From the NCBI GenBank assembly GCA_015066385.1, contig SVOJ01000025.1, positions 1-41,807 on the forward strand: a stretch of DNA of 41,807 bases, read 5' to 3'. The translations under genes were made by a program, and so were the position numbers. Origin of the DNA: Oscillospiraceae bacterium (GTDB taxonomy: Bacteria > Bacillota > Clostridia > Oscillospirales > Acutalibacteraceae). This document shows, piece by piece, positions 14,483 through 15,526 of the stretch. The notes under the pieces are model-generated. The model saw only the letters and a list, made by a program, of their open reading frames with translations, had not been told where the DNA came from and searched no databases. The first letter of the stretch is position 1. Every line of letters begins with the position of its first letter.

Positions 14483-14595
14483 AGCTCATTTCCTTGTTGT
14501 TTTATACAGTGTTATTCAGTTGCAAAATCAGAACATTTGATGCAAAACATGATGATTTTTCACACCAAAAATCGCTCATAACAATGGGCATCGTT

Positions 14596-14618
14596 TTCGA
14601 TTCCTACTACCCCTGCCA
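14596..14618 (+). other. tRNA 3'-tail-like sequence (possible attachment site)
   Basis: TTCGATTCC followed by TACTACCCCTGCCA looks like the T-loop, T-stem 3' strand, acceptor 3' strand, discriminator and CCA of a tRNA, and a strong terminator starts 3 nt later, as after a real tRNA. The 5' half that should pair with it (a GTAGG stem strand) is absent, so it is not a tRNA gene. Short tRNA 3' tails of this kind are typical att remnants of integrated elements. Confidence 0.4.
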
Positions 14619-14620
14619 AA

Positions 14621-14655
14621 AAATCCGACAAGTTTCGACTTGTCGGATTTTTTTA
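14621..14655 (+). terminator. Strong rho-independent terminator
   Basis: A 12-bp perfect stem, AAATCCGACAAG (14621-14632) with CTTGTCGGATTT (14639-14650), a 6-nt loop and a T-run. No coding gene ends here; it follows the tRNA-like tail. Confidence 0.85.
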
Positions 14656-14656
14656 T

Positions 14657-14870
14657 CCAAGCCGACAGGCTTGGTATATCATCAGCCGTAGGCTGTATAT
14701 CATCAAAGGCGGCTCGCCGCCTTTGTATCTCATCACACCTTCAGGTGTGTATCAAAAAACTGTCGGCTTGATGATATGCAAAACTTCGTTTTGATGATAT
14801 ACAACCTCTTGCGAGGTTGATGATATGCAATTCCTGCGGAATTGATGATATACAAGGCTTCGCCTTGATT
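14657..14870. repeat. Hairpin array with fixed 10-bp spacers in two opposed halves
   Basis: Eight small perfect hairpins plus one long-range stem are separated by one conserved 10-mer. Left half: hairpins at 14657-14674, 14683-14695, 14705-14724 and 14735-14748, spaced by GTATATCATC (14674-14683, 14695-14704) and GTATCTCATC (14725-14734). Right half: hairpins at 14780-14792, 14803-14818, 14829-14843 and 14854-14866, spaced by the reverse complement GATGATATAC or GATGATATGC (14770-14779, 14793-14802, 14819-14828, 14844-14853). The 11-mer CAAGCCGACAG (14658-14668) pairs with CTGTCGGCTTG (14760-14770), closing the left half. Stem sequences all differ while the spacers are kept, so selection or mechanism acts on the spacer and on pairing. 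No coding capacity is seen. Confidence 0.85.
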
Positions 14871-14918: not shown

Positions 14919-14947
14919 TTGTGCTTTCTCTTTGTTGGTGGTATAAT
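14919..14947 (+). promoter_or_regulatory. Promoter of the first acetyltransferase
   Basis: TTGTGC (14919-14924) and perfect TATAAT (14942-14947) with 17-bp spacing, 46 bp before the ATG. Confidence 0.65.
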
Positions 14948-14992: not shown

Positions 14993-15526
14993 ATGTTAAG
15001 CCCGAGAATAGAAACAGACAGACTTATTTTAAGACGATACAAAGAAAGCGATATAGATGCTGTTTATGAAATCATAACGGATGAAAGATTAGCAAAATAC
15101 ATTAAATATCCTGCTTTGACAAGAGATGAAGAGTTGGAATGTATCAGAAAATGGATAAGCGAAGCAGACGAAAACAAATACGAGAAGTGGGTTATGGAAT
15201 TGAAATCCACCGGCGAGGTTGTCGGCAATATAGATGTGAATACTGTCGTTAAGAAACATAATTATTGTAATGTCGGATATACAGTAAGGTATAACTATTG
15301 GGGCAATGGTTATGCTGCCGAAGCATTGAAAGCAGTTGCAGACCATTTGTTGAATAACCGCGGTTATTACCTGGTTGAGTGCTCCTGCAACGAACTGAAT
15401 GTGCAATCGTTCAGAGTCATGGAAAAGGCGGGATTCCAAAAGGACGGTTTCATTGCAAACCGAAGATTAAACAAAGACGGAAAATATTCCGGAGTTGTTT
15501 ATTACAGTAAATCAAAATCAGTATAA
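14993..15526 (+). CDS. GNAT acetyltransferase (RimJ/RimL-type)
   Basis: A 177-aa protein of the Acetyltransf_3 class: the opening IETDRLILRRYKESDIDAVY is the RimJ/RimL-like signature, and the acetyl-CoA loop region reads YTVRYNYWGNGYAAEALKAV, followed by VECSCNELNVQSFRVMEKAG. The family acetylates N-terminal amines of ribosomal proteins, antibiotics or small amines; the substrate here is unknown. I chose the ATG at 14993, which has GGAG 10 nt upstream and lies after a clear promoter; a longer frame would start in the hairpin-array flank. It is the first gene of the small-gene run reaching to 22.2 kb. Confidence 0.85.
   Translation: MLSPRIETDRLILRRYKESDIDAVYEIITDERLAKYIKYPALTRDEELECIRKWISEADENKYEKWVMELKSTGEVVGNIDVNTVVKKHNYCNVGYTVRYNYWGNGYAAEALKAVADHLLNNRGYYLVECSCNELNVQSFRVMEKAGFQKDGFIANRRLNKDGKYSGVVYYSKSKSV

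Follow-up and report, generated by a model that had tools for sequence, protein, structure and literature searches.

An array of unlike hairpins joined by a common spacer, possibly the front module of small cassettes at tRNA 3' ends in gut Clostridia

Introduction

The window examined here is a stretch of 41,807 nucleotides from an Oscillospiraceae bacterium (GenBank assembly GCA_015066385.1, contig SVOJ01000025.1, forward strand). From position 14657 onward it carries what the initial annotation described as perfect hairpins of unlike sequence, joined by an invariant 10-bp spacer and arranged in two mirror-image halves. The locus thus raises the question of what kind of element such an array represents, and how its hairpins can be perfect when their stems differ from unit to unit.

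Results

Structure of the array in the window

Eight perfect hairpins with a stem of at least 5 bp are present in 14657-14867, as compared with a mean of 0.82 and a maximum of 4 in 1000 dinucleotide shuffles. The folding z-score of the array is -9.4 for the + strand as DNA and -8.3 for the - strand as RNA, and in either case 0 of 200 shuffles folded equally well. The hairpin array with a common spacer in two inverted halves is therefore far above chance. At gathering thresholds, Rfam recognised two tRNAs and no other family in the window. The features of the array are as follows.

14657..14674, + strand: hairpin 1, CCAAGCC-GACA-GGCTTGG (hairpin scan)
14674..14684, + strand: left spacer copy 1, GTATATCATCA (repeat list)
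14683..14695, + strand: hairpin 2 (hairpin scan)
14695..14705, + strand: left spacer copy 2 (repeat list)
14704..14725, + strand: hairpin 3, with a 9-bp stem (hairpin scan)
14725..14735, + strand: left spacer copy 3, GTATCTCATCA (repeat list)
14734..14749, + strand: hairpin 4 (hairpin scan)
14760..14770, + strand: central strand CTGTCGGCTTG, the complement of 14658-14668, which can pair with the 5' arm of hairpin 1 instead
14770..14779, + strand: right spacer copy 1, GATGATATGC (pattern search)
14779..14793, + strand: hairpin 5 (hairpin scan)
14793..14802, + strand: right spacer copy 2, GATGATATAC (pattern search)
14802..14819, + strand: hairpin 6 (hairpin scan)
14819..14828, + strand: right spacer copy 3 (pattern search)
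14828..14844, + strand: hairpin 7 (hairpin scan)
14844..14853, + strand: right spacer copy 4 (pattern search)
14853..14867, + strand: hairpin 8, the right end of the array (hairpin scan; CACGGC-TTC-GCCGTG in the related genome G021)

The spacer is common to the array but, contrary to the earlier description, not strictly invariant. The left spacer is GTATATCATCA in two copies and GTATCTCATCA, off by one base, in the third, and 3' of the fourth left hairpin only the decayed form GTATCAAAAA is present; the four right copies are of the GATGATATGC/GATGATATAC type. The left core TATATCATCA (one copy TATCTCATCA) and the right core TGATGATATA/TGATGATATG show that the halves are inverted. The 11-bp inverted repeat reported to close the left half (14658-14668 / 14760-14770) is perfect, and because its left strand is the 5' arm of hairpin 1, hairpin 1 and the closure are mutually exclusive. 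The same pairing of the hairpin-1 5' arm with the central strand was also used as an element detector.

Conservation of the stems as structure

Between spacers of the same polarity, 542 of 657 inserts fold into a perfect stem of 4 bp or more, and 95 distinct stems occur among these 542 units, a tally in which overlapping or orthologous loci (e.g. L150/L200 and L016/L191) are counted repeatedly, as they are in the promoter and cargo tallies below. In four size classes, 18 of 20 stem pairs exceeded all 500 column shuffles in covariation and the other two equalled the shuffled maximum; compensatory evolution of the stems, anticipated in the initial annotation, was thereby borne out. Most covarying positions show several pair types, and at one position, for example, 61 of 66 units are paired with all four types represented (shuffled maximum 29). 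The loops are strand-specific, with 325 of the 542 of the form G(N)1-2A against 7 of the form T(N)1-2C. Loops of the former type closed by C-G are very stable in DNA.

Hence, in the repeat unit only the spacer and the pairing are kept and the stem sequence is free, the reverse of the usual repeat family, as had been noted. The unit would consist of a spacer particular to the element and of a perfect hairpin, whose loop is mostly GNA or GNNA. Stems that are perfect yet changing could be due to selection for shape or to template switching between the arms, and the data fit both. The arrays provide a collection of natural hairpins with conservation restricted to structure.

Dispersal in the own genome and in relatives

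The motif GATGATATRC occurs 65 times in the own genome (33 + 32 on the two strands), well above the single occurrence of the reversed pattern, and 45 of these copies lie in ten clusters. A strict two-unit pattern matched the own genome and 10 of 58 relatives, as compared with 0 for the backwards control. In a named genome collection it matched at least 117 stretches, which were retrieved with the spacer pattern itself; the 80 that were listed are MAG contigs labelled Clostridia, Clostridiales, Oscillospiraceae, Ruminiclostridium, Ruminococcus or Christensenella. The array thus belongs to a family scattered over the own genome and shared with many Clostridia of rumen and gut.

In G013, one and the same two-unit array, TGATGATATGCACGCTGGCGCGTGATGATATACA, is present at several sites (C5, C17, C18, C65, C74 and C77), which suggests recent spread. 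Arrays of the same units in one direction only were seen in L043, L044, L046, L057 and L012, the first of which also has GATTCCATAC and GATTACATAC spacers.

Target ends, promoter and cargo

The flanks of the array suggest a cassette whose order would be the 3' end of a target gene, a terminator hairpin, the array in its opposite halves, sometimes a promoter, a cargo gene and, in occasional copies, the target end repeated. The target would be a tRNA gene or, in a part of the relatives, rumA/rlmD, which encodes a 23S rRNA methyltransferase and would likewise be occupied at its 3' end. The corresponding features in the window are listed below.

14594..14618, + strand: decayed tRNA-like 3' end, TTTTCGATTCCTACTACCCCTGCCA, the presumed remnant of the target (sequence)
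14618..14654, + strand: A-run, terminator-like hairpin and T-run, which appear to travel with the element
14865..14870, + strand: TTGATT, where some related elements have their -35 box; the window copy has no TATAAT at 17 bp
14942..14947, + strand: TATAAT, likely the -10 box of the cargo gene, as judged from the sequence
14993..15526, + strand: GNAT acetyltransferase gene, the probable cargo of the window copy (family match)

By eye, 14594..14618 resembles the tRNA-Trp ends of L109/L119. Related elements were anchored at a T-run followed by ATCC; a terminator-like hairpin lies 5' of most anchors and is not evident in a few (L017, L117). An intact tRNA gene is present in the left flank of 55 of the 114 elements with a full flank, always on the same strand, and in 54 of these 55 the distance between tRNA and array is 30-49 nt (L125 being counted twice). 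By a second definition, an intact tRNA gene directly adjoins the array in 61 of 115 elements; both totals include L125 twice and anchors that are probably not true left ends (e.g. L029, L073, L106 minus and L149). Among the other 54 of the 115, many, not all, have tRNA-like 3' fragments as judged by eye, and some end in one of a few recurrent other ends, e.g. GTAAACAC. Six terminator stems are each common to two to six tRNA species; thus, the terminator appears to be a part of the element.

In 27 of 95 elements a TATAAT-like box follows at 17 bp from TTGATT, which is the foot of the last hairpin (5 at the next best offset), so that in these copies the foot would serve as the -35 box of an outward promoter. 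The window copy has no -10 box at this place, and its GNAT gene probably has one of its own. No NCBIfam model scored above its own cut-off with this gene. The gene closest to the array is directed away from it in 66 of the 95 elements and towards it in 17, and none was found in 12, the longest ORF near the right end having been taken, with some doubtful ORFs included. A clustering of ORFs around the arrays yielded, for the most part, spurious ORFs that run through the arrays themselves.

A minority of the same-strand cargo genes in the window's class (9 of 66) encode IVP, also named S23p, a protein without known function that is encoded in rRNA intervening sequences (IVSs) according to the available text of PMC4990558. 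Six elements lie at the 3' end of an rRNA-methyltransferase-like gene. Three of these genes were tested and match TIGR00479 (rumA) over the last 120 residues with E-values of 2e-37 to 5e-41, under the whole-protein cut-off, as expected for gene fragments. In L291, L311 and L352 the first hairpin is built, by eye, with the last codons of the methyltransferase-like gene itself. Inspection by eye further indicated that rumA-site elements seem to have neither T-run nor promoter between that gene and the IVP gene.

Differences between close relatives

The window and its counterpart in G021, which are 96% identical, have the left flank and the array in common, and their right flanks are unrelated from the array end onward. 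Both arms of the last hairpin have changed between the two (CAAGGC..GCCTTG in the window, CACGGC..GCCGTG in G021). In G016 the GNAT gene is found in another context, 3' of another gene, which fits a captured cargo. Also in G016 (L197, 3820-4335), the gene that lies left of the window array precedes an IS110-type transposase-like ORF, as judged by eye, instead of an array.

In G000 the end of a tRNA-Gly gene is followed by a sequence from which it is separated in G021 by precisely a terminator, an array and a gene, a difference equally accounted for by gain and by loss. At a tRNA-Arg gene, the array of G000 is replaced in G021 by an array with the spacer GATTACAT and another gene. Other sites (L015/L195) are the same in both genomes. 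As presence, spacer type and cargo differ at the same tRNA between relatives, sequence comparison supports the suggestion of a mobile, mostly non-autonomous repeat. Hairpins had also been proposed to be added one at a time: L013 and L193, the same site in close relatives, differ by one unit, so that units do come or go, and stepwise addition did not follow from this.

On the far side, 7 of 91 elements of the window's class have a copy of the target end at 18/24 or better (shuffled, 0). Among 69 arrays with IVP such copies are clear in three, L329, L322 and L352, and most have none. The identities are 24/24 in L126, 21/22 in L329, 26/28 in L322 and 30/36 in L352. In L126, L194 and L329 the far copy is located within another tRNA-linked hairpin structure, which is present in G000 without this cassette; hence, the copy alone is no scar of this element. 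This second structure, seen in L009 (1890-1990), L014 (1780-1930), L126 and L329, consists of an inverted T-arm copy, inner hairpins of the AACAGTCCGG..GGACTGTT type and then a direct copy of the tRNA 3' end, and is placed either between tRNA and array or 3' of the cassette.

In L322 the repeated unit of 556 bp comprises the array and the IVP gene alone, in tandem. Between the target copies L126 has a small ORF, and L329 an IVP gene and, by eye, a deaminase-like ORF. These three cassettes are about 0.5-1.3 kb in size, and no recombinase gene was seen in them by eye. Two elements lie close together in L049, L111, L122 and L131.

IVP genes and spacer classes

Directly right of some arrays there is a gene for a 114-aa protein of PF05635 (E 1.3e-17; TIGR02436, 6.2e-32), and among proteins of solved structure the one closest to it in sequence is the uncharacterised 2rld. 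In the window copy there is no IVP open reading frame. A search with PF05635 gave matches in 61 of 108 genomes, and the IVP set was composed of the 30 loci returned and 100 further ones, chosen among the best-scoring matches listed, without those near contig ends. Upstream of the IVP gene, at least five copies of one 7-mer were found in 70 of 145 cases, whereas any of 20 shuffles reached this number in 3 of 145. At the laxer threshold of four copies the test is weak, as 98 of 145 pass and some shuffle does so in 42 of 145. Among IVPs chosen by PF05635 alone, 58 of 125 passed the five-copy test. Two of the 70 (L233 and L260) belong to the classical clade and probably have other repeats.

The other IVP arrays inspected show the same anatomy, namely a tRNA or rumA end, inverted halves and an IVP gene, with quite different spacers, such as AATATAACT, ATTTCACC, CTTCATTA, ATATCGCA and GCATCAC. 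In 24 of the 66 IVP arrays with enough left flank, an intact tRNA gene on the same strand is no more than 70 nt away, and more have one at 70-93 nt. Spacers occur in both orientations in 65 of the 70 arrays upstream of IVP genes. This is compatible with the pairing of left and right spacers into a large cruciform that had been proposed, but a protein site used in two orientations fits equally.

When 22 spacer classes were placed on the IVP tree, 21 changes were required, the minimum possible, as compared with 48-54 in 200 shuffles. The overlapping 7-mers had been merged by hand into these classes, and the 35 raw 7-mers are also at their minimum of 34 changes. The tree is based on few columns, and many of its forks are unresolved; when a single class is set against all the others, AC requires 3 changes and D 2. 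Array presence requires 19 changes (shuffles, 39-55), and one fork of 81 IVPs (support 86) includes 64 of the 70 array IVPs. The core ATATCAT is present in two separate clades, and 13 of the 15 multi-member spacer classes span at least two host-family codes. Thus, spacer class follows IVP clade, although linked inheritance of two parts would predict the same agreement. The many IVP genes behind arrays whose spacers differ clade by clade make the array a direct candidate partner for IVP. G021 has many arrays but a single IVP match, which has no array upstream, and no IVP gene was found beside any of its arrays.

Occurrence in the phylum and in phages

A profile search with an alignment of array-type IVPs matched 38 of 299 genomes sampled from the phylum, and among the loci returned a hairpin array by the strict test was found in the own genome only. 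Two unannotated phage clones from human faeces, L364 (MT835815) and L365 (MT835590), have an IVP gene with an upstream hairpin array, the spacers being ATATCAC and TATTTCA, respectively. The hairpin form may therefore be confined to the order and its phages. IVP-A was confirmed in none of the viral contigs. Hairpin arrays with GATGATATGC were matched in six IMG/VR contigs, including L396 (8666-8743) and, by pattern, L397 and L398; the array in L396 lies just upstream of terminase-subunit-like ORFs, as judged by eye.

Heptamer repeats upstream of other IVP genes

Tandem heptamers with a period of exactly 7 were noticed upstream of IVP genes of other clades in L235, L237, L230, L241 and L284, and also in Treponema (L359), Bernardetia (L360) and Planktothrix (L363). 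Upstream of IVP genes without hairpin arrays, the period-7 score is at least 14 in 26 of 75 cases, as compared with 1 for period 9 and 0 of 75 for periods 4, 5, 6, 8, 10, 11 and 12. The corresponding period-7 values are 3 of 70 in the hairpin group and 4 of 138 downstream.

Discussion

The conservation of structure, the dispersal, the location at tRNA ends, the presence or absence and whole replacement of arrays, and the tracking of IVP clade by spacer class are directly supported. With a probability of about one half, they are explained by the array being the front module of a small mobile cassette at tRNA 3' ends, with IVP as its partner. The initial interpretation overlooked that the array would be only the front of a cassette, as well as the other spacer families and the linked IVP genes. 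The front end would be recognised through spacer and hairpin shape: an oligomer of IVP, a four-helix-bundle protein encoded by some copies, may bind the spacer-hairpin unit, and copies like that in the window would carry another gene. A recombinase supplied from elsewhere might, together with IVP, mobilise or maintain the cassette. Action at the level of DNA is more probable in the window's class, since the array there has a terminator on one side and, in some copies, an outward promoter on the other. The analysis reveals an abundant single-gene cassette system at tRNA ends of gut Clostridia.

More broadly, and only tentatively, IVPs may be sequence-specific partners of short repeat arrays in general, of hairpin-spacer arrays in one clade and of heptamers in others, forming minimal mobile elements at stable-RNA and rRNA-modification genes, with rRNA IVSs as one branch. 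If IVP rewrites or copies the repeats, hairpins that are unlike yet perfect would be expected.

It is also conceivable, though doubtful, that the element works at the RNA level, the array being transcribed, either by read-through from the tRNA or along with IVP, and the RNA hairpins then being processed or bound, with IVP as an RNA-binding protein like Avd. The fold of the minus strand as RNA would suit this, and the rumA-site elements, in which T-run and promoter seem to be lacking, argue against a purely DNA role, as the array there may be transcribed. IVSs are likewise transcribed stem-loops in rRNA (PMC4990558, available text), and PF05635 resembles Avd (PMC10053308, available text). Against this stand the terminator-like hairpin before the array in the window's class, the outward promoter after it in 27 of 95 elements, and the finding of no Rfam family but tRNA in the window. 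A role that serves the host, in which the array is a topological buffer or insulator behind highly transcribed tRNA genes, as a cruciform or gyrase site, and the cargo is incidental, would account for the position 3' of tRNA genes and for the strong folding potential as single-stranded DNA. It is unlikely, because presence and type vary between close relatives, the cargo is biased in orientation (66 same, 17 opposite, 12 none) and most multi-member spacer classes extend over at least two host-family codes.

Integron attC cassettes are small and carry genes, have a folded site of variable sequence and in some cases stand in tandem, and the array cassettes share these properties. The array could accordingly be a folded single-strand recombination site for a tyrosine recombinase acting in trans, and the single-gene cassettes, the neighbouring pairs in L049, L111, L122 and L131 and the occasional target-end copies agree with this; insertion at tRNA or rumA 3' ends, not at attI, makes it improbable. 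REP/BIME sequences, which are accompanied by RAYT transposases, are short intergenic palindromes in alternating orientation with many copies per genome. The array cassettes are similar in all these respects, and their palindromic units have a conserved foot (TTGAT) and both orientations within one element, but variable stems on fixed linkers (95 distinct stems among 542 units) are the reverse of REP. A Y1 (RAYT/IS200) transposase was rejected as the mover, since its gene and the array do not match in presence: G001, G019 and G058 have arrays and no Y1 (PF01797) match, as judged in draft genomes with the strict pattern, and many Y1-bearing relatives are without the array pattern. Ordinary REP/BIME-like repeats are therefore very improbable.

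Two further known kinds of element are comparable with the cassette of the preferred reading, which has IVP as partner. Tycheposons and other tRNA-targeting integrative elements (ICE/IME) use tRNA 3' ends, have occasional target-end copies and carry interchangeable cargo. The array cassettes likewise lie at tRNA 3' ends with interchangeable cargo, and the target-end copies in a few of them may correspond, but they are headed by a hairpin array and, in the three inspected, are small and without a visible recombinase gene. The rRNA IVSs (S23p/IVP, PF05635, TIGR02436) are likewise parasitic elements tied to stable-RNA genes, with stem-loops and an IVP gene, but are located inside a helix of 23S or 16S rRNA and not at tRNA and rumA 3' ends (PMC4990558, available text). 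Compared with IVSs, the array cassettes add many unlike hairpins and swappable cargo.

In the literature searched, with few subscription papers and bioRxiv preprints covered, no account was found of such arrays or of their link to IVP, and among the matches listed for the array 10-mer all look unrelated by title. The parts available of PMC4990558, of PMC10053308, in which Avd of DGRs is an IVP relative, of PMC10910872, where a figure legend places IVP among the associations of CRISPR adaptation modules, and of PMC8040213, on palindromic candidate RNAs of the microbiome that are mostly terminators, do not describe such arrays.

The heptamer repeats are likewise located directly upstream of IVP genes, in other clades, but have no hairpins between the repeats. 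The STRR of cyanobacteria are tandem repeats of heptamers. TAACTGA heptamer tandem repeats are reported in Beggiatoaceae (PMC4679880), and heptamer repeats are also described in PMC4692102; neither 'intervening' nor 'four helix' appears in the main text of either paper, as far as available. IVP-like genes on plasmids (L358, L363) were seen flanked by the type I system genes hsdS and hsdR, and next to the DISARM gene drmD.
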